Below are positions 6,834 to 57,171 of a DNA stretch of 64,000 nucleotides, piece by piece. The translations under genes and the position numbers were made by a program. A model generated the notes under the pieces. The model was given only the letters and a program-made list of their open reading frames with translations, had not been told where the DNA came from and made no database searches. Position 1 is the stretch's first letter. Each line of letters starts with the position of its first letter. The DNA lies in NCBI RefSeq assembly GCF_008831285.2, contig NC_045141.1, forward strand, positions 3,427,224 through 3,491,223. Direction: 5' to 3'. Source of the stretch: Nymphaea colorata (lineage: Eukaryota > Streptophyta > Magnoliopsida > Nymphaeales > Nymphaeaceae).

Positions 6834-7070
6834 TGTTGATTATTGGAAAAAGAAGGGGCGAGAGAGATAGAGGGAGAAAGTGAGAGAACGAGAGAGAGAG
6901 AAACGTTTTTCTTATTCCAACACGTAACTGTAATCTCCTATTAATATGAGACTAGGGTGTGTTACCAATTTTACAAAAATAGTCCACTAAACATAAGACA
7001 ATAATTAAGTGAACCTATTCCAACTTTCTAATAATTCAGAAAACCACCCAACTGCTATAAGTATTTAACA
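6834..7070 (-). repeat. Copia LTR (5' LTR of the element)
   Basis: 237 bases with TG...CA ends. It is 2 bases longer than the other LTR because of one extra GA in the purine run. It should carry the element's promoter, but no TATA box could be assigned with confidence. Confidence 0.95.
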
Positions 7071-7075
7071 ATCAC
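7071..7075. repeat. Target-site duplication, right copy (atcac)
   Basis: Repeats the five bases at 1557-1561. Confidence 0.9.
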
Positions 7076-34427: not shown

Positions 34428-34435
34428 GTTGTACA
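34428..34435. repeat. 8-bp target duplication, left (gttgtaca)
   Basis: Identical to 34776-34783 on the other side of the GC-rich element. Confidence 0.85.
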
Positions 34436-34775
34436 TAGAGGTGGGCATCGGGCCGAGTACCCAACGGGTAGCCCGTACCCGTCCCAATCGGGCTTGGGCT
34501 CGGGCCCGGGCCCAGGCCTAAAAAAACAGTTCCAAGTCGACCCAGTAGGTACCCAGTTAAGCCCTATAGATTTTAAGTATTATTTTTTTAATTAATAATA
34601 TAAATTTTGTTATAAAAAATGTTTTTTATATTCAAAAAAATTATTTTATATTTTTAAAAATATTTTTTTATTGTAACCGGGCCGGGCTGGTGCCGGGCTC
34701 GGGTTTTGGACATCAGAGTGGCCCGAACCCGGCACTTATCTGGCCTGGCTGGGCCGGGCCGGGCCGGCAGGCCTA
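34436..34775. mobile_element. 340-bp non-autonomous hAT-like element with GGGCCGGGC arms
   Basis: Perfect 8-bp duplications (gttgtaca) border a segment that starts tagaggtgggcatcgggcc and ends gggccggcaggccta. Both arms are very GC-rich (gggcccgggccc, gggccgggccgg) and the middle (34565-34670) is nearly pure A/T. The arms could fold on each other. An 8-bp duplication and TAG...CTA ends fit hAT. There is no coding capacity. The left end resembles one end of the element at 36990-37879 (14 of 19 bases), so they are probably one family. Confidence 0.8.
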
Positions 34776-34783
34776 GTTGTACA
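34776..34783. repeat. 8-bp target duplication, right (gttgtaca)
   Basis: Identical to 34428-34435. Confidence 0.85.
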
Positions 34784-34789
34784 ATTCTG

Positions 34790-36980
34790 ACCAATGCTAC
34801 ATGTCCACATCTACAATGCAACAACTGGCATGTGGACGAGCTCGCATCACTAATACTTTCTCTTTCAAATAATGGAGATTGTGAACAATCACTATGCAAA
34901 CATTAGTAAAGAGTTTCAACACACAAATATATCCTTCAAATTGAATATTTCATATCACCCTTTTATGCTCATATATTACTACAACAAATAATGAATATAT
35001 GAACGATTCCCCAACACCGGTTTGGGAAACCAGTTCTAAATGTGTATAGGGTGTCAGCAACCGTTATAAGGTGGAAGCAAATGGTTTTTCGTCTCTAATC
35101 TCAATGTTGCTTGATCTCTTTCTGTCTCCCTCACTGCCTTTTATCTCTGCTCCTCATGGTCGATTGATCGATCAAACCTCTCATTGTCTTTTTTCTCTCT
35201 TGGTCAATTACTTTCTCTCACTCTCTTCTAACGATCTATGCTCTTTTTTTTTTTTTTTTTTTTTTATCTTTGCTCTCTCGATCGACCTACCTCTCTCTAT
35301 AGATTTTTAGGGTTCTCAATGTAGGCATCTCCCTGCCTCCCTCCTTCCCTCTCTCTCACGTAATTCTATTTGTGTTTGAATGTTTTTTCTCTTGATGCCT
35401 TTATTTCTCTTGATCTCGACCTCTCTTTCACTGTTGATCCATTGACATTCTCATTGCTGCCTACCTCACGTGCTTAACACCTGAACAAAGCAACTAAAAT
35501 TTAGGGTTTGGCATTCTCGAAATGTTTAATTAGAGAATCATCCATAGGTAGCCACTAAATTACAAAAATACTTGATACATATTGAAAATTTTGATTTCAA
35601 GGAAAATTAGTCATAGTATATTTCATTTTTAATCCTTTTTACTTGTAAATAGTTAATAAACTCATCTTCAAACTGCCATCTTGACCTTAATCTAAGTCTC
35701 AAATTTTTGTTCTCGTTATAGCATTTCCTACTCTTTAAGTTACAATATCAATATGGATATGGCAAAAATGATGGAACTAAAGGGGAACGTCATACTTGTC
35801 AAATGCCGTATGACAAGGATAAAATTGTTGGGGCAGCTGTCAACCGAGGGATTTATACTCTTAACATGCATGATGTATATATGTCTTCTAAGAAAAGATA
35901 GTGCACAGAGTTTGTGGGATATGATTACAGCAATCAAATTTGCAACACTCTTTCCTTCCGATTTCTTCTAAGCATGTAGTTTTGGTATTCGATTTTCTCA
36001 TGGTCCCCTATTCTTGATATATTATTTTGGTTGATTTTACTGTCATACCCGCATGCTTTTTGCCCATGTTTTTGTCCTATACTTTTTCAAGTTAGAACTC
36101 TAATGCAAGACTAGTACTATTGCTCAACTGATAGTAAACATAAGAGGGTTGTGATATGCTGTTTGTTTTCTCAATTGGCACTTTGTTCTCCATATTTACT
36201 GGAATTGTAATTGGCATTGATTACTCTGGTTCAATAGAGTGGCCTGGGTCAAAATGGCGAATGTTTAAGGTTCCCTTCTCTGTCACCATACAGACAGGCA
36301 CAACCACATATAAATGGCTGGTTATGTCATCTGGATAGCATTCCTTTGGAACATGTGCAATACAAGATTTATTGCAGATAGATGCATATTCTCCATTTGA
36401 AGTATTGCCTGTTACAACAAATCCAATAACAGATTATGTTATAACAAATTCAATAATAGGTGCAATGAGATCCTCTTTGTTTCAGTTCTGTGAAAGAACC
36501 ATCACAACCTAAAGCTTAGCGAGATAGTTAAATTATGAAAGTAGCTGTAGCTGTAGGACAAACTATGGTCATTATCCAAATTATTTATAGGGAACAATCT
36601 GTAGATCTACTATCTCTATTTAATTTTTTTAGTTGTAGGCCATCTCATTGACAAATATGATGAGCTAAGAAAAAGGTTGGGGTGGTGGCATTATGAAAGC
36701 ATTCATATAGTTCATAGCTAGTTTTGGGTTCTGGGTAAGTGAATCCAGTTTTTTTTTTTATTTCTCATGATAAATGTCCTTTTTCTACACTCGTATTGGT
36801 GGAAGTTAAGGTTCAATTCATGTTTTTGTATAGTGGATAATTAGCAGAAATAATCTTTAAAATTTTGATTGGAATTCACTTCAAGGTTATGTTGTTTGAA
36901 AGTCTTCTATGCTTTTAAAAGTTTCTTGTGATATCTCATCTTTTCTGGACAACATAACTAATGACAATATAATGTGCAGG
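34790..36980. other. Spacer with CT-rich tracts
   Basis: No gene assigned. Pyrimidine-rich DNA with a poly-T run occurs at 35090-35440. The segment 35755-35890 reads smoothly in one plus frame (NRGIYTLNMHDVY) but matches nothing I recognise. An ORF at 36156-36338 is also unassigned. Confidence 0.45.
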
Positions 36981-36981
36981 T

Positions 36982-36989
36982 GAATCAAG
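36982..36989. repeat. 8-bp target duplication, left (gaatcaag)
   Basis: Identical to 37880-37887. Confidence 0.87.
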
Positions 36990-37879
36990 CTGGCCTGGGC
37001 ATGGGGCCGGGCCGGGCTGGCCCGGCCGGGTAAGGGCCGGGCTGGCCCGGCCGGGTAAGGGCCGGCCCGATCCGGCCCGTCAGGCCGCTCAGCCCTGCCC
37101 GATAGCCCGGGTCTCGGCCCGGGCCAGGCCCGGCCCGGCCCGCCTTTTCCCCTCTGCCTCCTCGACCGCCTTTCTCCCCCGGCCTGGCGCGCTCCCTTTC
37201 CCGTCCCCCCCGCCCGACCATTTTCCTCCTCCCCTTCTCCGTCCCGTTGCAGCTGCTGCTGTTGGTCATCCTCCTCCTTCACACTAGGCCTCGTCGGCAG
37301 CAACCATGGATGCAGAAGACGACAGACGAACACTAGGGAATTTTTGGAACGTTGGGGTGTTGGGATTTGGGATGGCTGAAGGCAGAAGCCTGGTTTTCAG
37401 CAAAGGGAAAGGGGTAAACTACTGTGGTTTTGATGTTGCAGAAGAAAGAGAGAGAGAGAGGGAACAAAATGCAAGGTGTGAAGAGGATTACCCTCTATCT
37501 TCCCATTCTGACGATGTTGTCAACAGCGTCAAGAAGCTGCAGCGCCTGGAGATCTCCTCCAAGGACAGTCGGCTATTAAGCAAGAGCAACACTCAAGAGA
37601 GGTTTGGGAACATACAGTTACAGAGAGGGGGAGCAGAGAGGGGGAGCGGGAGCAGAGAGGGAGAGGAGAGGGGGAGTAGAGAGGGAGAGGGAGAGGGGGA
37701 GCGGAGAGGGAGAGCGGGAGCGGAGAGGGGGAAAGGAGGGCGGGAGTCGGGCCGGGCCGGGCCGCCACCGGGCCGGGCCGGGCCGCCACCGGGCCGGCCT
37801 ATCGGGCCCGGGCCCGGCCCGGGCCAGCCGGCTCGGAACCGGGTCCGATCGGGCCGGGCCGGCCCGACGCCCAGGCTTA
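36990..37879. mobile_element. 890-bp non-autonomous hAT-like element with GC-rich arms and a captured insert
   Basis: Perfect 8-bp duplications (gaatcaag) flank it. The left end ctggcctgggcatggggcc and the reverse complement of the right end, taagcctgggcgtcgggcc, share 14 of 19 bases. Both arms are arrays of gggccgg (36998-37145 and 37748-37870). The inside (about 37145-37620) is ordinary mixed-composition DNA with a coding-like frame, followed by a gggagcagagag-type purine repeat. It lacks any transposase, so a related autonomous hAT element must have moved it. The layout resembles Pack-type elements, which carry host gene pieces between transposon ends. Confidence 0.8.
37306..37620 (+). pseudogene. 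Coding-like segment captured inside the GC-rich hAT-like element
   Basis: From the ATG at 37306 a plus frame runs MDAEDDRRTLGNFWNVGVLG, later SHSDDVVNSVKKLQRLEISS. It has ordinary amino-acid composition until it enters the purine repeat near 37620. The frame then continues through the GGGCCG arm and past the transposon border to 38043, so the full-length frame is chimeric. I do not recognise the protein. It may be part of a host first exon taken up by the element. Nothing shows that it is expressed. Confidence 0.35.
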
Positions 37880-37887
37880 GAATCAAG
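37880..37887. repeat. 8-bp target duplication, right (gaatcaag)
   Basis: Identical to 36982-36989. Confidence 0.87.
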
Positions 37888-38280: not shown

Positions 38281-38810
38281 GCTCTTGCACTAGGGCATCA
38301 AGATAACACCTAACCACACCACTTTTCATGGCTCAAGCTTTGTTACACCCCTTTTTCATGTCCAAGTGCAACAGGTATCAAACTAACACTTGAGCACACC
38401 CATTTTTGTGTCTAGCGCACTAGAGCCTCATCTCATGCTTTGGGCACACCCATTCTCGTGTTTAAGTACAATAGGATACCAAGCTAACACCTACACACAC
38501 ACCCTTTCATGCCTGGATGCATCCTGGCCTTATCTCATGCTTAATCACACCCCTTTTTTGTACTTAAGTGCAACATGGCATCAAGGTAACACCTAAGCAC
38601 ACCCTTTTTTGTGTCTGGGCTTAACAAAGTTTCTTTTGATGCTTAATCACACCCCTTTTTCGTGTTTATGTACAACAGGGCATCAAGCTAACACCTAAGC
38701 ACACCCCTTTTGTGTCTAGAACACTAGAGCCTTGTCTCATGCTTAGGTGCAACATGGAATCTAGCTAACACCTAAGCACATCCCTTTTCATGTGTAAGCA
38801 TACACCAGCA
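38281..38810. repeat. Degenerate tandem repeat, about 102-bp unit, six copies
   Basis: The core catcaagctaacacctaagc plus acacc recurs at 38296, 38376, 38476, 38579, 38681 and 38758. Steps are 80, 100, 103, 102 and 77 bases. Between cores lie ccctttttcatg/gtgtct and ctagagcc...tctcatgctt words. The short steps look like internal deletions. No coding function. Confidence 0.88.
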
Positions 38811-38819
38811 TTTGAAAGT

Positions 38820-41410
38820 AAAACATGTGAATTTTGAACCTGAATATTTCAAGAGCACATGTTTATCAAATTTTGCTACCGTTTGAGCAAGAAACCATCT
38901 CTAATCATTGTTTGAAGGAGATTTGAGATAGAAGAGGCTCAACAAATTTGTGATATGAACAAGTAGGTCTAATCATTTTGAGAAAGTCAAAATTGAGTAA
39001 ATGTTATTGATTCAAATGGTCGAAAGGTATCATGGGAACCTAATGAAACTCATGTGAGAACAAAGATTCAAGTTGGTTCAAGCTGATCAAGCAAAATCAC
39101 TGCAAAATGTGTACTGAAAGATGGGCTCATGATAAGTATATTCATTCCTCTGAATCAATAATCAAGAGAACCACGTAGGTGTGAAGCTTGATTTGCATCT
39201 ATTCTGCAAAGTTATGTGATCCATGAATTTATGTCTAGTCGTAATTCTGCTAAAGTCAAACAAGTAAGTTTGAAGGGTGTTTCACATCTAGCACCCAAAG
39301 GCCAACTGGTTTGAAAGCTGAAAAATTGAAAGCTCACTAAAAGGGCTCAATAGAAAGCTCGATAGAAATGACATTGCACATGACAAAGCTATACATCAAC
39401 ACCAAGGTGGTGAGGTTCCATAGTAACTGGTGGGGTGGTAAGGTATTTCCTCCACATGGTGATGGTTGGCCAAAGCAAAAGCAAACAAGAGAGTTTAAAA
39501 GCAAAAGGAAAAACAAAAGATAAAGAAGATTGAGTGTTTGCTTGAAAGGTAGAAACTACTAAAAATCTAAAAAACTCTTCTGAACTATATAAAATTCCTT
39601 GTGGTCTGAAAGACATTAAATCAATAATTGATCATTTAATAGATTCTTCATGAAAATGAGAGTCTACCTTCTAGAAGTTCATAAAATGACAATGAAAAGG
39701 AATTTTTTCCAAGAATCTAAGAAGCTTTAATTAGAGTGAGTTTTTTAACCCTTCCAAAGCATAAAAGATTAAGACAAGTTGTCCAAAGGATATCAGAATC
39801 ACAATGAACATGATTTACTGAACATGTTGGATTTTGCAAGAGTTCGCCCTCCCCATATTTAGAACCTATCCATCACAAGCACACAATGTCAATGCTCACC
39901 CAGTTCATGAACTGGGCGCATTTGTTATCAAAATCATGAACTTTCACAATGTTCATCCATTTTGCAAAGTGGGACACTTTTTTTATCATGAACTTCATGA
40001 TGTCTACTCAGTTTTCAAACTAAAGTCATCCTTTCTTACAATGTTTAGACCAATAAAAACTTCACCATTCTCAAACTGGGATGTTTTTTATTCAAAACAT
40101 GAAATTTCACAATGATATCACCTAGTATTCACACAAGGCATCTTAAAGGACTCATTCCTCACATTGTGCATGAAACTTGTCACTGACCACTTACAATTTC
40201 TAACAATATCTTGAAAGTTTAATATATCAATAGATTAAATTTTTTCTACATCATTTAGCAAAGAACTGTTAATGAAGGTTGAAACAGATCAAGAAAGCAT
40301 AGCCACAGGACATGAAATTAAAAACCAAGAAAGATTCTGGTCCAAACTAACTGCAAATCAACACCAAGCAACCTCCAATGAAGCCTCCATCTTGCTAATG
40401 AAAACAAATGAAGCAACCTCCAAGGCAGTTACACTCTTGAAAAGCTATTCTACTATCAAAAAACTCTCTCATCTAGTTATCCAACCTCTTTGATTGAATA
40501 TTAAAATGATTGGCATGACATCGCTGCATGATTGGCACAAAACTTGTTCATGTAAGAAATTCTCCAAACGTCATAAACTTGGTCTAAGATATTAATTAAT
40601 TCTTTGAGTGTCAGAAACCCAATCTGAAATATTGTGGAGCAAGGATAAGTTTTTAAAAAAGTAACCCATTTAATACCATAAACAACAGATCTGGAATTGC
40701 CAGACCCTACAGACAAATTTGGATACAAATTTCATCATCCTTTGCTTGGTCAAGCATCAAGGATAGACCAACTTGAAACCCAGGGTATTCACTTACCCTG
40801 AAATCTGGCATAAGTTTGAAAGTCTTCCATTACATCCCAAAGTAATTTTTCATCAACAAGGTTCTACAACTTCCATCATTTTTTTGAAAGTGTCGAACAA
40901 GGATGCATCTTCTTTATCACAACTAAACAATGTATGAGAAAGACACAATTGCTATAAAGTGTCAAACTCCAACAAAAAAATCTGAATAGGATGTGATTGG
41001 CATTGCTTCTATAGCCATCGACCTCCATGACCTACAAAATAGTATTTAAAACCAAAGTTAAAGTAAATGCAACATAACAAAACAAACAACTTGATATGTA
41101 TAGTAACACTTAATGTTACCTAACAGTTAGTCATAGAAATTGTATTTTTATTGAATTAACTTCAAGCATCAATCTTGCAACTGAAATCTGTTACTAATTG
41201 CACTTTGCATTAATGAATCTTCATTCTTGAATGTTGTAAATGCTAGTTCCAATTCATTGTACTTTGCTTGCAAGATCCAATACTTTTCTTGTATAGTAGC
41301 TGGTCCTTTGGAGGCCTCATTTGCTACTCCCACATATTCAACATGTGTAGCATAAGGATTGAAATCAACTTTCGAAGAAAGGCTGAGTCCATAAGTGTGA
41401 ACACATCCAC
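38820..41410. other. AT-rich spacer with a weak repeat
   Basis: No recognisable gene. At 39889-40115 a degenerate unit of about 50-65 bases recurs (catgaactttcacaatgtt, cannttttgcaaactggga and variants), about four times. Confidence 0.5.
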
Positions 41411-41417
41411 GTTCCTC

Positions 41418-42421
41418 TAGGCCAGCTCAAGCTAGACTCGACAGTTTGTGTCAAGCTCGAGCTCGACTCAACAGTTTGTGTCAAAATTGAGCTCGACTCG
41501 TTTAAGCTAGTGTAACTCTGTTTTTCAAATGGAGTTTCCAAAAACCCTAGAGGAATGACCTCATTCAAGCTCGTGTTACTCTTAAATGGAGTTTCTGAAA
41601 ACCCTAAAAACAGTAACTCGAGTTCTTAAATGGAGTTTCTGAAAACCCTAAAACGGAGAGGAATGACATTTTAGGAAAAATGATTGGGCTCATCAGTGTA
41701 GGCTGGAACAACATGGAAGCTTATCATGGGTCATCTGTCATCATGTATGGTGGGTCGTCGATCTCAAAGCCGTTGGTGGCCTTGCCAGAGAAGGCAGATT
41801 TCGTCTCCATCCACCGGAACATTCAACCAAAAGAGGAAAACCTATTAAAAAATAAAAGAATAAATAAAATAATAAATAAACAATAAAGAAAACTCACCAT
41901 GGGTTAACCGATATCGTTCTGCTATGGTGGCTTGCAACCTCAAAATCATTGGTCGCATGCTAACCATTGGAGATGCTCGAAGGGTTATGGAGCTTGAGGT
42001 TTGGGAGAAGAGGAGTGAAAAGAGAGAGAAACAAGAGAAGAAAATGAAGGTTGCGGGTGAAGTGAGGCCTTTCTTACCATTTAATTTCAAAATGACCCAA
42101 ATCTTTGTCTTGTCTAAAAAAAACTGCTATAATTTTAAAATGTTAATGCCACACCATTTTTAAATAATATATTTATAGAAAGTGGTTCTCAGCTCTTCTT
42201 TTTTGCAAATTTGAAACTATTTTTTCATGCTTCGAAAATAACATAAACAAGCCGACTCAAGCTTATTTGAGCCAAGCTCGAGTTTTAATTTCAACTCTAG
42301 CTCGGCAAGTTTATACATTCGAATTTTAACTTCAACTCGAGGTCGGCTCATTTAAGAAAAAAGTTGGCTTGAACTTGACTATGAGTGGAGCTCGAGTTAC
42401 TCGGCTTGTTGTTTTGACCTA
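41418..42421. mobile_element. Candidate GAGCTCG-rich inverted-repeat element
   Basis: The left part (41421-41510) has agctcgagctcgactc and a 30-bp internal duplication around cagtttgtgtcaa. The right part (42250-42410) has gagctcgag and ctcggctc words in the opposite sense. Between them lie three tandem copies of an atggagtttctgaaaaccct unit (41527, 41584, 41628) and a GC-richer stretch at 41690-42080. Composition resembles the element at 20644. No 8-bp duplication was found, so the borders are provisional; it may be two separate insertions. Confidence 0.35.
41527..41660. repeat. Three irregular copies of a 44-57-bp unit
   Basis: aaatggagtttcYRaaaaccct recurs at 41527, 41584 and 41628. Confidence 0.8.
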
Positions 42422-44889: not shown

Positions 44890-47560
44890 CATCTTTTGGT
44901 CTTTGCCTCTAAAGCGCATTCATGCTAATTGTAGCCACAATCATACCCATTCTAACCCAACCTATGTTCTTCATAAGTTCTGTCACTATCTTCAAAGTCC
45001 CAGCATATTTTAAAATCATCAACATTCATGTCTTTGCATTCTTCATTTGTGTTCTTCATAAGTTCTGTCACTAGTTTCAAAGTTCCAGCATATTTTAAAA
45101 TCATCAACATTCATGTCTTTGCATTCTTCATTTGTAACAAACAAATGTATTGGTTTTGTCTTGATGACAACTTTTCAACTATTACCTAAAATATATTCAA
45201 CGTAAAAGACTTGTCAAACTTGGGATGCCAAGACAAAAGGCTCATCTTGCATGCATCTATGATTATAATTAATGAGTGACAAACCAAACTCATCCTTTTT
45301 TAGACCTTGTAGCCCAAGAACATAGAACCATTCACATTTGAACACATATATGAATTCTCCATAATATTGCGGCTCTAATATTTTCAATAACACCATAATA
45401 AGTGAGACATACTCTTATAAGCCAAGTATCTCTAACACTTGAGAAACTCAATGTAAGCACATCTACAACATTGCTGTTTTTTATTTTTCTATTACTATTT
45501 CTCTTTTTGTACGAAAGTGGCCCACTTATAAAATATCCTTTGAACCTTCTTGTCAATCATGAGGGCCATGTGATAGTCATTTAATTTTTTCTCTCATTTC
45601 CTAAATAGATTGAACATTTGCATTGAAAATAAATAAATGCTAAAAAACCTTTCAATACAAAAAAAAAGTACAATAACGCAACATCGTCAAATATTTACGT
45701 GTTTCCTAAACCAATCTTAAAATTGGATTTTACGAATGTTTTCAACTTCACCAATGGAGACTTTCTGATGTTGACTTTTTATTTCTCTAATATGTTCTCT
45801 GCATCAACCATTAAAAATATATAGACACAAAAGAATAACATCTACTATAACCTGATATATTAAGACATTTACTTGTGAAATGGGTTGAGAGATTTGAAGT
45901 TAAATAATATATATTGATATGTCTACCGCAATGTATTGTCATTCAAAAGAAAAACATCAATCTTTCACAGAATTGAACCCTTTCTCAATTTTGTAATTAT
46001 TCCTTCCTCCATTTACTTTTATAGTAATATCACCATTTTTGTACGAATGATTCAAACATATTTTTACATTGTAAGTAATGAACACAAAATTCCATGCACT
46101 TTTCTGCTAGGTAACCTTTGGCAGTAGAACCTTTTGTGCTACTTTTATTTCAAACACAACTTTTCAACCTACTTAAAAATCCATCATCATGCAAGATCAT
46201 GATTATCAGCTATAAGCAATTTATGAAGCCATGAAATTACACTTTTAGAGTACCACTAGTAACTCCCAATAGGGTGCATCCATCAATATTGTACTGGACC
46301 ACCTAGTAATGCCTCCATTGTTAGGTGAATAGGTAAATGCAACATGATATTAAAAGATGCAAAGGAAAAGATTCTTTCTAGTAGCACAATGTAAGGGCAA
46401 TTTTTTTTTCTAACTCTTGCAATTCAGTCTCATGTAAAACTTTTGAACATAATTTCTTGAAGAAATTGCATAACATAATCACTAAACTCACATTTTTTTT
46501 TTTGGCAGTGATCTATGTAGGACAAGAAGAAGAAGTTGATGTATCAAAACATGACAGTCATGAGAGTTAAGCCCTGAAAAGTTTGTTTTCTTTAATACAC
46601 TCTGAGATATTTGAAGCGTAACCATCTGAAACTTTGATATTTTTCAACATTTTACAAAAAAACATCTTTCTCACTTTTGTGCATTGAAAAGCAAGCTCAA
46701 GGCAAATATATTATCATAGCCTTCAACTTGCACAGGTGAATGGAATATCTTATCTACATAGATTGCATATCAAGTAGGGCATATACTGTGCCTTTTGATT
46801 TTTCATTAATATTCAACAATGTCCCAATTAAGTAATCACATATATTCCTTTTGATGTGCATTATATCCAAATTATGTTGCAATATGTTATGCTCCTAAGA
46901 CATTCTAAAGTAAATACTCTTCTTCCTCCAATTATAAGGCAAATGCCATATTGGAATCTTTTGTACAAATGAACTCATAATATTTTCAACTTCATGCAGT
47001 ACCTCAGATCTAGAAAGAACAATAGGAGCATGTCTCACCTCGACAGTACCATCAATAGAGTGCATCTCAACAATATCGATGAGATATTGGCAGCCACCGT
47101 CTATGTGTCATATAACACTGCTTATTGGAGCCAATCAAACGATAAGAATTAGTTTCCATATGACTATAAGGGCAAGCTAGGTAACATTTAGTACTGCATG
47201 TATTATGTATCCTTCGATGTGTTGTATGTGTTCACAACCAACTTCCCACAATTTTTTCAACTTAACTATCAACGGTTGTAAATACTATCTCAGATTGTCA
47301 TAAATAATGAAAGCAGGAGAAAATGTTGTTTCATACACATCCAAGGATGCAAATTATCAGAACTAAAACAAATTGCTACATGCTAGTCATTGTCTTGGAA
47401 GCCATCACTTGGTAGTCTGAGTCTAACATTCCGAGGCTCTAAGGCAAACTACATGTGACGCTCATCAGAAGATTTTCATGCCAATGAATTAGCTTGATGC
47501 CTCAAATAGTTGTCTTTGTTGTGACCCTCGTCATGCCATTTCATATAAGATGTCGTCTTA
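44890..47560 (-). pseudogene. CACTA (En/Spm) TNP2-type transposase, decayed
   Basis: Read right to left, fragments follow the order of plant TNP2 proteins: a YMKWHDEGHNKDN-like start and LRHQANSLAWK near 47480-47550; EPRNVRLRLPSDGF near 47410; LHPWMCMKQ at about 47329-47355; HNLDIMHIKRNICDYLIGTL at about 46800-46880; LERIFSFASFNIMLHLPIHL and GGPVQY in the DUF4218-like part at about 46270-46390; TYYGVIENI near 45390; VFKCEWF and EPFVLASQV at 45214-45350. Many stops and frameshifts separate them. The protein would have cut and moved CACTA elements in the nucleus; this copy cannot. Its 5' end abuts LINE sequence near 47560. Confidence 0.85.
44966..45135. repeat. 85-bp tandem duplication
   Basis: gttcttcataagttctgtc starts at 44966 and 45051. 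The two copies differ at about 3-4 positions and lie over the C-terminal part of the TNP2 relic. Confidence 0.95.
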
Positions 47561-47569
47561 GATGACATA

Positions 47570-50510
47570 AAAAGTCTTTAAAGCCTTGGTATTAAAGGAT
47601 AATGCCACACCACACAGATTATACAATCTGGAGCGATGAATAGCATGCCCTTCCAAAATTCTACGCAGCCAAACAAGCCAAAATTTGTGGTTAGAAGCCG
47701 AAAAGATGTTCAGGTTAGTTTTTGGCAATATAAGGACATAAGACTTCATCTAGCATGTCAAAACCAGCTTTAGGAACGTCACCCTGAATCATTCTATGTG
47801 TGTATAAAACATCATCACTACTGCCTTGCCTAATAGCAAAGACCACCACCTAACCTCCCCTTCTACACCGAAAGGCCACCAAATGACATATATCCTTATG
47901 TGGGATCCTTGGCCAATCATCCACCACAACACACCCAAAAAATTAGTCATGCCTCAAGCTCCTTGCGGTCCCTAAAGTTTTCTTTAAACCTAAGCAGGAA
48001 ACGCTCGACACAATTTGCCCAAATTTGTCTAGCAGTGTGCTTAATCTGAACTATCTCGTTGTTATGGACCCGAGCATTTCTGGCCATCTAAAGATTCCAG
48101 ATTGCGGTTTGGAAGCAAACCCACCAGCATCGCATCAACCAACCTCTTTTAAAACTAGAGTAGTACCACCACTTGAGCTCCATAATGAAATTCCAATGAG
48201 GAATTCTCCTTTTACCAAACTTACTGCAGATTGTCAACACCTTAACCACAACATGACAATCGAAGAGCACATGAGCTGCATCCTCGACATGTTTGTGGCG
48301 ACATATACTGACCACAGTGAACCCTCTTGCATAAAGCCTGCCCTGATTTTGGAGTTTGCCATGGCTAACAATATAACAAAACCAGCTCGCAAGGGGGCAC
48401 AATCCGTGTTCCGCACCCAAGACCTCCACCTATCCTCTGGGCACTTATCCCTAACATACTCCCATATCTGAGCACATTTAATTTGGCCTGTCGGCCTCCC
48501 TTGAACAAGCAGAAAGTCCGACTATTAGTTAGACTCATGACAACACGACCGAGTCAATGCATCCTGGTTTGAACGAATTTTTGAGTTGTAGGTGTCGAAA
48601 GCGCCATATCCTGAATGGAATGATTGAATAAAGGGTGGAATAGGTCAAACTCTTATGCAGTCAGGTGGTTTTTGATGCAGATGGACCTGTCCGACCAAAA
48701 AATGATGTTCCCCTCTCCTACCCTCCAAGTCACTTGATTCTGAATAGCAGCACTCCATCCTGCGAGAAGGCCCTTCATGAACTAGGAGCTACATCGGATG
48801 CTCTTTTTTTACCGCAAGGAATTATTGTCATTTAAATACTTGCTCCTACTAAATTTCACCCATTTCCCCTTCTTTCTACAAATCAAGGCTAGATGAGCCA
48901 AATGAGCTTTGCCCATCATATGGAAGTCCTTGATGCCAACACCCCTTCCGTAAGAGAACAACATATTATGCTCCAAGCAAGAAGATGGTTCGCTTTGGCC
49001 TTTGTCCACGTTTTCCATGGAAATTTGGCCATCAAAGATTGATTTGGTTCGACATCTCCGCAGGCAACTGGAACACTGAGACGCAATATCTCACCAAACT
49101 AACAATGGCATGATTTAGAAGGTAGAGTCGTCTTCAATAGGATAGAAGTTTAGTCTTTCAACCTGCAAGCCTCTTGGTAATTTTTTTTTCACCAAGTCTA
49201 CGTAGCTCACTAATGTTAGCCGCCCGATGAAAATGGGCAATCCAAGATATCGTTCTGGGAGTTCACTGACCTGCAAACCAAGGAAGGACCTAACTCTCTG
49301 CGTTTGTTACTTGTCCAAATTTAAAGGGATGATGGAACACTTATGGGCATTAATTCTGAGTCTCGCGTGCCAGCCCAGGTTAGTTAAGAGCTCTCCTGAA
49401 TTGAGATCGATAAGAGAATGTCATCAGCAAAACGGTGCATATACCTAGGCATTGAGTACCTCTAGCAAACCAAGCAGTAAGGATACTCTGCCTAGTTTTG
49501 TTCACCAAGCCTCTAAACACCATCTCCATGATAGTGTTAAAAAGATAGGATCATAGGAGGTGAGGGGATCCCCTTACCATAGGACCCTTTTAAGGTCAAA
49601 TAGCTACCAACTCGCCCATTGATTATAATAGTGGCTGAGGTTGAGGATACACATTTCAAATTTTGTTTTAACAAAGTACAATCAAACCCCAACTGGAGCA
49701 AGGATTTTTTTTTTCAGGAATCTCCAGTTAACCCGATCATCAGCCTTGGAAAGATCGAGTTCCAGGCAAACTGCACCTCTATTATAGGACTGTAGACTGT
49801 GCATAACTTCATGGGCAAAAATAAGATTCTCCCGAATGTGACGATTGGGTAAGAAACCAACCTGCTCAGGCCCAATGATTCTGCCAAGGATACCCTTCAT
49901 GCGGTAGACAATGATCTTAGTAATAAACTTGAAAATTCTGTTGCAGAGAGCAACAGACTTATACTCCCCAAAGGAGTGGACTCCATCTCCTTTGGGGATA
50001 GGTGTGATGATAGTTCTGTTAACCTTCTTGAGAAGTTTACATGTACGGAAGAAGTATTTGACTACTAAGCACACTGACTGCCTCACAATATCCTAATTAA
50101 GTTGAAAAAGGAAGTCAGGAAGCCGTCGACTGCTGGTGGACTGTAACCATTATCGGTAGAAACTGCTTCTTGGATCTACTCATTTGTGACGGGTCTATGG
50201 AGAGCAGTGTTCTCTTCCTCCAATACACACAGCCCATCAGCAAGGTCGTTGAAGAGAGTCCTGTCTCCTTCGACTCCAAGAAGGTATTGGAAGAATTGTT
50301 CACCGGCCTCTAGAATCCAATCTTGGTCCCTGATTGTACTACCATTCACATCCACCTTAGAAATGAAATTCTTTATGCGAAGAGTGTGAGCAATAACTTG
50401 GAAATAAGCGGTAATCTGGTCTTTTTCTTTGAGCCAGTGTACTCTCGACTTCTGCCTCCACCTGCACTCTTCTTCAAGGGTATCATTGAATTCCTCTCTA
50501 AGCATTCTTT
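47570..50510 (-). pseudogene. LINE (L1-like) retrotransposon ORF2 relic
   Basis: Read right to left: the linker before the RT at 50176-50505 (EEECRWRQKSRVHWLKEKD, matching the WRQKSRxxWLKxGD motif of plant L1 elements); reverse transcriptase at about 49400-50086 (TPIPKGDGV, GPEQVGFLPNRHIREN, ELDLSKADD); the catalytic FADD at 49420-49431; a post-RT segment around 48809-49018 (GRGVGIKDFHMMGKAHLA); a zf-RVT region at about 48230-48430 (EDAAHVLFDCH); and RNase H-like traces (VVVFAIRQGSS) near 47850. The endonuclease part is not seen, so the relic is 5'-truncated, as is common for LINEs. Frames change many times, so it is inactive. No poly-A tail was found at its 3' side. Confidence 0.85.
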
Positions 50511-54109: not shown

Positions 54110-54450
54110 CTAAGTTCTAGGAGAACACCAGCTCTTGCTTCTCTTTCTCACATTTGGACATTGTGGTTCGTGATGTTTGTTTCTTTCATGTTACTGTTCC
54201 TTTTATCTTTCGAAAGTTATTCTGGCTATCCTTTTCTTGACAGTTCTATTCTTGCTATCTTTTATTGCATTGGGGATTAGTGATTTTTGTTTAGCAATTT
54301 CATGGAAGAAGTCTGCATGGGTTTGCTGAGCTTGTTAACTATTTTATTTTCTATATCCATATGTCAAAATCAAGCTGTATATTGATATATTTTTGAAATT
54401 TCCCGAACTTGTAGACTATTAAATGAAGGATAAAAAGAGGTTTTTTGATT
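54110..54450 (+). other. Probable 5'-UTR or 5'-UTR intron of the FRS gene
   Basis: T-rich DNA between the GC-rich segment and the ATG. A cttgtag at about 54407-54413 could be a splice acceptor, but no donor can be fixed without transcripts. No in-frame coding sequence joins the main frame. Confidence 0.4.
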
Positions 54451-57171
54451 ATGGAATGCGATGAAATGGACCAAATTATTGTTGAGGAAGGGGAAAATGC
54501 ACCTTGCTTATCGGGCTTGGAATCTCATATGGAGGAAGCAGAAGGCATGGAGCCTCATATAGATGAAGCAGCCAAGGATGCTACCATGGACCTCAATATG
54601 GTTGAAGGAACCAAATCCACCAATATGAACCCTAGTGCAGATCAAACAGCTGTTGGTAATATGAACGATGACCCTGCTAGCAAAGAGCTTGTTACAGCAG
54701 GAGAAGATGCCACTATGGAGCCTGTTCTTGGAATGAGCTTTGACAGTTACGCTGAGGCAGAAAAGTTTTACTATGATTATGCTAAACATGTGGGATTTGG
54801 CACTAGAATAAAATCAACTAGCCGTTCAAAGAAAACAAAAGAGATTAATCATGTGGTGATATGCTGCAATAAAGAAGGTTTTAAGGCACCAAAAAGATTT
54901 ACAGCCTATTCAAAGCCAATAACAAGGATTGGTTGCGATGCAATGGTGAGAGTTAAGCAAAACTCTTCAAAGAAGTGGGTAGTGACCGAACTCCACCTTC
55001 CCCACAATCATGTTTGTTACCCAAACATGGCAAGACGGTACAAATCGCATCATCACTACTTGGACTCTGGAGGTAAAAAATTTAAGATGAGGGGAAAGAA
55101 GGATCAGAAATCGGGGAAGAAGGCAAATCAGTCTGTTAATACACTATTCATAGCTCCAAGATTTTATCCACAATTTCCCTTTGTTCAACAGGTTCTAATG
55201 CAACAGCAACAGTTAGCTTTTGCTCAACAGCATCAGCCACAACAGCAACAGATGATGTTTGGGCAGCAAGAGAGCTTACCTTCTGAACAGCAAGGCCCAA
55301 GGCATCTGAAGCTTGGGAAAGGAGATCTGGAAATGGTTCATCTATTTTTTGAGCGTATGCAGTTGAAAAACAAATGCTTTCATTACATGGTGGATGTGGA
55401 CAGCGAAGGAAAATTAAGAAATGTGTTCTGGGCAGATGCCAAGTCCAGAGCAGCATTTGAGTATTTTGGAGATGTTATTATGCTAGATACGACGAGTTTG
55501 GTAAGTAGATATGACTTGCCTCTTGTTACATTTGTTGGAGCTAACCACCATGGTCAGTCTGTCTTGCTGGGCTGCGGCCTGCTTGCAGATGAGTCAGTTG
55601 AGTCATTTACTTGGCTTTTAAAATCTTGGGTTGAGTGTATGTCAGGGCGTTTCCCAAATGCCATTGTCACCGATGAGTGTCAGGCTATACAAGCAGCAGT
55701 TGGTGAGGTCTTTCCAAAAGCGCACCATCGTCTATGTTTGTGGCACATCATGGAAAAGATCCCAACAAAGTTGAGAGGATTAAGTGACTATAAAGCCATT
55801 AAGAAAGCACTTAAGAAGGCAGTTTATGATTCTTTAAGATCTGACGAATTTGAGAGATCTTGGAAAGAGGTAATTGACACATATAAGCTTGAGGATAATC
55901 AATGGCTCAGTTCATTGTATGAACTCCGTCATCAATGGGCTCCAGTTTTCATAAAGGATATTTTCTATGCTGGAATGTCTACTTCCCGGCGTGGTGAGAA
56001 GTTCAATGCTTTCTTTGATGGATATGTGTATTCAAACACTTCTTTCAAGGAGTTTGCTGAGAAGTATGAGATGGTTCTTAAGAAGAAATACAATGAGGAG
56101 GCTCAAGCTGATTTTGACTCATACAATAAGGTGCCAGTCATGAGGACTCATCTTTGTTATGAAAGTCAACTTGCTAAGGTGTATTCTGGAGAAATATTTG
56201 TACTATTCCAGGAGGAGGTCTATGGAACATTTGATTGTTACAACATTGAACGTACTAAAATAGATGGGCATTGTTCTACTTATATCCTTAAAGAGCGTGT
56301 TTTTGACAAGGATGGCAATATCGTGGGTTCAAAGGAGTTTGAAGTTATGGCAAGTGAGCCTGCAGCTGAAGTTCAATGCCTCTGTCGTCTGTTTCAATAT
56401 AAAGGTTTCTTATGCAGGCATGCATTGTATGTTCTTAACCATATAGGTGTGCATGAGATCCCAAACCATTATATTCTGCCTCGCTGGAGGAAGGACTTCA
56501 AACGGATACATGCTTTACAAAATCATTCTGACATTGTGGTGCCCATTAGTGAAGCACAACGGTATGACAACTTGTATCAGATGTTTATTCATCTTGTGGA
56601 GGAGGGTTCTTTATCAGTGGACCACTATAAAGTTGCAGTTAGAGGAATTGCAGAACTTGTGGAAAAGATTCTGTATGGGGCAGAGAGTCATAATGGATTT
56701 GTTGGCAACTATACTGACAATTCTATTGATGGGAATCAATACAATGAAGTCAATCTGACATTTACACCCATGATGAATTCATGTGTTATGAATGATCCTT
56801 TGAGGGTTTCATGGCCATTTCACCTGGATGATGGAATCTATGGTTCTGTGGAGACCAACACAAGCAATAAAAAGAGATGCAGCAAATGTGGGAAGCTTGG
56901 TCACAACAAAAAGACATGCAAAGAGGTTGGTTTACTAATTTCACTTCTACTGAATATCTAGTGATTAAACATGAGACTGACGTAAGGTGCATTTATTGTC
57001 ATCGTGTAGATAAAACAAGAAATTAGGTGTTGATTACTTTATTCTCAATGATCAGTAATTTTTTCCTGACGATGCCATTACAGTATTTTGCTCTAAAAAG
57101 TTAATGGTGTTTACATTTTTGAGCAGGTAACCGAATCTCCTTTGTCTGAAGGTTTCCTATCACAAGGTTAG
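54451..57171 (+). CDS. FAR1-RELATED SEQUENCE (FRS/FHY3) family transcription factor
   Basis: A domesticated MULE transposase acting as a nuclear DNA-binding regulator; in Arabidopsis FHY3 and FAR1 drive phytochrome-A light signalling. The start is the ATG at 54451 (MECDEMDQ). Exon 1 runs to 56925 (825 codons). A GT-AG intron, 56926-57126, joins in frame to a short exon ending TAG at 57169-57171, for 839 residues, normal for the family. Domains: acidic N-terminus; FAR1 zinc-binding domain at about 93-190 with C138, C162, H185, H187; Gln-rich linker at about 246-290; MULE transposase-like domain with D346, D408 and probably E468; SWIM finger C643-x-C645-x9-C655-x-H657; C-terminal CCHC knuckle C810, C813, H818, C823. 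If the intron is retained, the protein ends at 56961 with 11 different residues. The coding frame is uninterrupted, unlike every transposase nearby. The precise FRS member cannot be decided here. Confidence 0.95.
56926..57126 (+). other. Intron of the FRS gene
   Basis: Begins gttggt after aaagag and ends ttgagcag. Removing it keeps the frame and extends the protein by 14 residues (VTESPLSEGFLSQG). Confidence 0.75.

Follow-up and report, generated by a model that had tools for sequence, protein, structure and literature searches.

An 890-bp GC-rich element, very probably a non-autonomous hAT-type insertion, and a close neighbour of similar make in plant DNA

The 890 bp at positions 36990–37879 of the window (by which we mean the whole stretch of 64,000 nucleotides analysed here, 37% GC and inferred to be plant nuclear DNA) can be assigned with good confidence to a plant non-autonomous, GC-rich hAT-type DNA transposon, here called E1 (66% GC overall), that would have been cut from elsewhere and inserted with an 8-bp duplication. 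A hAT-like origin had been proposed in an earlier note on this DNA, and it is backed by the exact 8-bp duplication, by the inverted ends and, above all, by a second element (E2) with a duplication of its own. Two elements, each with an exact 8-bp duplication, make hAT-type insertion the best reading. E1 and its parts are as follows.

36982–36989, no strand: left target-site duplication (TSD) GAATCAAG of E1, an exact copy of 37880–37887
36990–37879, no strand: E1, very probably a non-autonomous hAT-type element of 890 bp, with exact TSD, inverted ends identical at 16 of 22 bases, long inverted arms and a fold z of -9.2
36993–37245, plus strand: left arm of E1, with a GGGCCG-type array (to about 37143) and, inward of it, a pyrimidine-rich tract, in colinear inverted-repeat alignment with 37629–37876
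37246–37628, no strand: core of E1, about 383 bp, 50% GC, the remainder between the aligned arms and candidate captured DNA
37306–37628, plus strand: section, within the core, of the frame that opens at ATG 37306; this frame has no stop through the right arm and is open to 38043
37629–37876, minus strand: right arm of E1, a GA-rich tract followed by a GGGCCG-type array, the inverted partner of the left arm in the colinear alignment
37880–37887, no strand: right TSD GAATCAAG of E1, an exact copy of the left one

The perfect 8-bp flanking repeats described earlier are present, with GAATCAAG exact on both sides and the limits of the element as first given; the match is exactly 8 bp and cannot be extended to 9. 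Taken singly, this repeat is suggestive and short of overwhelming: in the window, random pairs of 23-bp stretches 300–3000 bp apart have an exact 8-mer in common with a frequency of 0.0069, which falls to 5e-5 at one fixed register. The two ends of E1, CTGGCCTGGGCATGGGGCCGGG and (reverse-complemented) TAAGCCTGGGCGTCGGGCCGGC, are identical at 16 of 22 bases and at 8 of the first 12; of all the offsets that the two arms allow, 1.87% reach 16/22. The claim of similar inverted ends thus holds, though the first three bases mismatch and the ends start with C and T, respectively. Each end deviates at 2 of 12 bases from an end consensus of about TAGGCCTGGGCA, for which the window contains 25 matches with at most three mismatches against 26 expected; this is chance level, and the short end by itself therefore has no diagnostic value. 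The end pattern was also sought in viral contigs, where it found no match.

More of the structure of E1 lies in its arms. The GC-only arrays span about 36990–37143 and about 37745–37879 (edges placed by eye) and therefore enclose about 600 bases, rather than the 475 or so given before. As a whole the arms form one imperfect colinear inverted repeat, with a local alignment score of 94, while no more than 47 was attained in 500 whole-region shuffles; the GC arrays alone score 66 against a maximum of 52 (500 shuffles). The CT-rich and GA-rich tracts aligned alone are not significant (P 0.104), and a score of 94 was reached in 1 of 1000 trials when only the tracts were shuffled and the GC arrays kept fixed. 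The tracts thus extend the inverted repeat, which leaves only about 383 bp of “ordinary DNA” in the element. It follows from the same alignment that the “purine repeat”, formerly listed as interior DNA, is part of the right arm and not cargo: this GA-rich tract pairs with the CT-rich tract on the left as a continuation of the arms. The single-strand fold of E1 has a z of -9.2 relative to 20 shuffles. Arms of about 250 bp are seemingly long for hAT elements. No titles on long-armed plant hAT elements were found in literature listings, which does not prove that none has been described, and a literature search with sequence strings gave, among the matches listed, only papers with unrelated titles, so the arms may still be described.

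A second element of similar make, E2, is found 2.2 kb upstream of E1.

34428–34435, no strand: left TSD GTTGTACA of E2, an exact copy of 34776–34783
34436–34775, no strand: E2, 340 bp, similar in make to E1, with CGGGC/GGGCC-rich arms, its own exact 8-bp TSD and a fold z of -4.7
34509–34520, minus strand: terminus TAGGCCTGGGCC resembling a right end, on the inner margin of the left arm of E2, matching the end consensus at 11 of 12 bases
34776–34783, no strand: right TSD GTTGTACA of E2, an exact copy of the left one

The arms of E2 have 72–73% GC and enclose an AT-rich core of 18% GC, and its flanking match is again exactly 8 bp with no extension to 9. Its ends, TAGAGGTGGGCATCGGG and (reverse complement) TAGGCCTGCCGGCCCGG, are identical at only 5 of 12 bases, both beginning with TAG; the left end starts with TAGAGGTGG, which we take to be the start of nDart1 as well. 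Complementarity between the two arms of E2 is no more than expected by chance (P 0.314). The arms of E2 nevertheless resemble those of E1, with shuffle P values of 0.068, 0.014, 0.002 and 0.006 in the four comparisons, the first of which is not significant. The single-strand fold of E2 has a z of -4.7 relative to 100 shuffles, each arm being predicted to pair mainly with itself. A consensus match with at most one mismatch, as seen at the inner edge of its left arm, occurs with a frequency of 0.0012 when the mononucleotides of that arm are shuffled, using a consensus that was derived from these same E1 and E2 ends. No clear inner terminus was seen within E1.

The 64 kb contain three clusters of GGCCGG-type motifs, namely the two arms of E1 (32 and 33 sites) and 34450–34762 (16 sites); the five sites outside these clusters are all single. 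We filtered the window for exact 8-mers 100–3000 bp apart whose inner 60-bp ends both have 60% GC or more, which 120 pairs passed: 106 with both copies inside E1 or E2, 10 two-letter simple repeats and four of mixed sequence. E1 and E2 are the only two of the mixed pairs with internal GGCCGG-type clusters. The other two, at 9.9–11.4 kb, were rejected, being free of such clusters and having poor ends (1/12 and 4/12). A third candidate, TAGGCCAGCTCAAGC at 41418–41500 followed by GAGCTCGAG-type motifs, is possibly an end of another hAT-like family; its presumed 8-bp flank has no exact second copy within 8 kb downstream, and for this reason it was not counted. The earlier note would have given up the hAT reading had no other copy with 8-bp flanks existed; within this one window, E2 with its GTTGTACA duplication is one further element of similar make with such flanks.

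Other features of the window include copia-type polyprotein open reading frames (ORFs) at about 2.6–5.3 kb on the minus strand, on either side of which lie direct 217-bp copies (1583–1799 and 6857–7073, 90% identical) that are probably copia-type LTRs or portions thereof. A reverse-transcriptase fragment is located at 49685–50092 (minus strand) and a FAR1/MULE-type ORF at 54427–56958 (plus strand). Tandem repeats were found at 38345–38788, 0.5 kb downstream of E1 (repeat length about 102 bp, copies 66–89% like the reference copy), and at 44965–45134 (two 85-bp copies, 96% identical). Of the 79 open frames at 30–46 kb with a length of 58 aa or more, 61 were scanned against Pfam (E up to 0.05), the 18 omitted being 17 that overlap E1 or E2 and the frame at 41368–41625 on the minus strand. 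Eight families were returned, one frame each: ARF_AD, DUF4216 and a weak Glyco_trans_2_3 could be placed on frames, and the remaining five, with E values from 0.0051 to 0.049, are known by family rather than by frame. The ARF_AD fragment (auxin response factor ancillary domain), located 0.7 kb upstream of E1 at 36195–36281 (plus strand), lies exactly at the Pfam cut-off (E 4.1e-06, 27 bits). Motif patterns of the remaining parts of an ARF gave no match in its vicinity, and the fragment may therefore be a gene remnant. DUF4216, matched at 45217–45414 on the minus strand (E 6.3e-11), is common in plant CACTA elements.

The interior of E1 had been described as coding-like, with an open frame from 37306. 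The frame is there: from ATG 37306 it runs without a stop to the end of E1 and continues into the host flank to 38043. Its length is close to what shuffling produces, the longest open frame in the core being 113 aa compared with a shuffled mean of 82 (P 0.073); the corresponding P values are 0.188 for 37145–37745, 0.21 for the whole element and 0.026 for 37300–37620, a 321-bp stretch picked after inspection. By codon-usage log-odds over 37306–37608 the open frame ranks third of six (-13.5 vs. -10.8 and -11.8); the FAR1-type control ORF had itself been part of the training data, which makes the positive control circular, and the test was used only against a coding reading. There is also a local periodicity. 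Over the 81 bp of 37510–37590, GC at codon positions 1/2/3 of the open frame is 0.48/0.30/0.81, and the best GC3-periodicity value of the core is matched by 2.3% of core shuffles (P 0.023). A GC3–GC2 difference of at least 0.5 occurs in 12 of the 30,042 stop-free 81-bp frames of the window, at four places. Another of these four is 37196–37303, mostly in the left arm of E1, and the FAR1-type gene of the window peaks at only 0.41, from which we conclude that the measure is poorly calibrated. The coding signs of the core are thus weak, with GC3 periodicity in favour and frame length and codon usage against.

Searches with the interior returned little. The stop-to-stop frames of 30 aa or more that overlap E1, 19 in number, were all compared with Pfam at E up to 10 without a credible match or a recognisable transposase; two weak matches had E values of 8.1 and 0.73, the better one being to Atrophin-1 in low-complexity sequence. 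A PDB search gave nothing significant (two weak matches, E 1.8 and 4). Against the rest of the window, the core produced short matches only (best E 0.24), and tblastn with the translation of 37306–37641 produced none. The interior protein gave four pattern stretches in IMG/VR, none of which was confirmed, and 51 in prokaryote genomes, two of which passed tblastn; these two, in a Defluviitaleaceae MAG (41% identity, query residues 59–105) and a Bacteroidales MAG (query residues 19–35), were judged to be chance, the segment from the former having been inspected. E1 had no match among plasmids.

For composition and size, the closest comparison is rice nDart1-0, which an excerpt of PMC10199049 describes as a non-autonomous hAT element of 607 bp with about 72% GC, a 19-bp TIR and an 8-bp TSD. 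By description only, E1 is like nDart1 in being a short, non-autonomous, very GC-rich hAT element with an 8-bp TSD. It differs in its 890 bp, its 66% GC overall with a core of 50% GC, its arms of about 250 bp and its duplications: those of nDart1-0 are described as high-GC in the same excerpt, whereas those of E1 and E2 have 3 of 8 GC each. The earlier note held that GC-array arms may mark an under-described family; GC-richness as such is nothing new among hAT elements, nDart1-0 having about 72% GC (PMC10199049, in excerpt).

Published work on Ac offers an analogy for the arms. Its terminal sequence is reported as C/TAGGGATGAAA, a hexamer recurs several times within 200 bp of each end, and the transposase binds these subterminal hexamers together with the TIR (PMC3260210, in excerpt); the ends of E1 begin with C and T. 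If the arms of E1 and E2 work in the same way, their CGGGC/GGGCC motifs are putative binding sites of a hAT transposase. A hAT transposase encoded at another locus would have acted on E1 by binding its short ends (consensus about TAGGCCTGGGCA) and these repeated arm motifs; E1 would then have been excised elsewhere and integrated here, giving rise to the 8-bp duplication, and the core of about 383 bp would be filler DNA gained between the ends, possibly a gene fragment.

For content, the closest comparisons are maize Ds2 and Ds-l4, grapevine Hatvine-6 and the maize Pack-hATs. Like E1, Ds2 and Ds-l4 are non-autonomous hAT elements with 8-bp TSDs, subterminal repeats and variable filler, Ds-l4 measuring about 1 kb; two Ds2 and nine Ds-l4 carry gene fragments, and capture is called a rare feature of hAT elements (PMC3260210, in excerpt). 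Ac/Ds have C/TAGGGATGAAA ends and AAACGG hexamers, whereas E1 and E2 have ends of about TAGGCCTGGGCA and CGGGC/GGGCC motifs. In the maize Pack-hATs (PMC8903248, in excerpt) and Hatvine-6 (PMC2528002, in excerpt), which are also hAT elements, the inner DNA was found to match the genome of the host. Hatvine-6 elements have transposase coding sequence in common; none was seen in E1. The idea that gene capture is mainly a matter of MULEs is therefore outdated, hAT capture having been published for maize (PMC3260210, PMC8903248) and grapevine (PMC2528002) in the excerpts cited; GC-rich non-autonomous hAT elements and hAT elements that carry host sequence are both already published kinds.

Two readings of the core have to be weighed. 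The core may derive from a host gene, of which the beginning, with ATG 37306, and a portion of an exon would have been taken up between hAT ends, e.g. by joint mobilisation of two neighbouring elements, a possibility that we take seriously while placing it somewhat below an even chance. The frame open across the entire core and the codon-position pattern at 37510–37590, equalled by few core shuffles, speak for such a Pack-hAT. So do the 2.2 kb between two related elements, as the fusion model requires, in which two nearby elements mobilised as one are a proposed route for gaining inner DNA (PMC8903248, in excerpt), and the inner right-end-like terminus that closes the left arm of E2. Against it are the poor calibration of the GC3–GC2 measure, the frame length (P 0.073), the codon-usage rank of third among six, the failure of all 19 frames to find a credible Pfam match, the lack of a significant PDB match, and the fact that a clear inner terminus was not seen in E1. 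The other reading, which we hold to be about evenly poised between true and false, is that filler of non-genic origin, or the decayed remains of an element, makes up the core, as it does in most maize Ds-l4, with the frame arising by chance in GC-rich DNA. It accords with ORF and codon statistics close to chance and with Ds-l4, in which the length has its mode at about 1 kb, the filler varies and gene-fragment matches are few (PMC3260210, in excerpt), and is opposed by the in-frame local GC3 periodicity. The inner terminus of E2, its self-pairing arms and the spacing of the two elements are compatible with fusion. A bolder proposal, improbable in our estimation, would place E1 and E2 in a GC-rich hAT family whose arms can each be a fold-back module bearing a terminus at either edge. 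Adjacent copies would then fuse easily and enclose whatever DNA separates them, and E1 would be a product of this process, a Pack-hAT whose core holds a gene-fragment frame that runs through the arm into the host.

As for the class of the element, MULE target-site duplications measure 9–11 bp, and no such duplication is found at E1 or E2, where the matches stop at 8 bp. A Mutator-like element with long inverted arms and capture is therefore given only a slight chance: the arms of about 250 bp would suit it, as most plant MULEs have long TIRs (PMC3310237, in excerpt), but grapevine MULEs have 9-nt duplications (PMC2528002, in excerpt) compared with exactly 8 in both elements here. Still slighter is the chance that E1 belongs to an ordinary gene, as its CpG-island-like promoter plus first exon, and that the 8-bp repeats are coincidental, for which the GC-rich stretch, the CT-rich leader and the ATG in AACCATGG context could be cited; this is countered by the long inverted arms, the exact TSD right at the edges of the GC blocks and the second case 2.2 kb away. 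The hAT reading has points against it as well. A transposase gene or an empty site could not be tied to E1, whose ends each depart from the consensus at 2 of 12 bases, with consensus matches at chance level in the window; the ends of E2 agree at 5/12, its arm complementarity has a P of 0.314, and one E1/E2 arm comparison has a P of 0.068.

E1 is very probably a real non-autonomous hAT-type insertion, and it offers a well-delimited GC-rich example with long inverted arms, a close neighbour in E2 and a core unmatched elsewhere in the window. If the core is not a gene fragment, E1 amounts to a routine transposon annotation; if it proves to be one, the E1/E2 pair would be a convenient test case for the fusion model of hAT capture.
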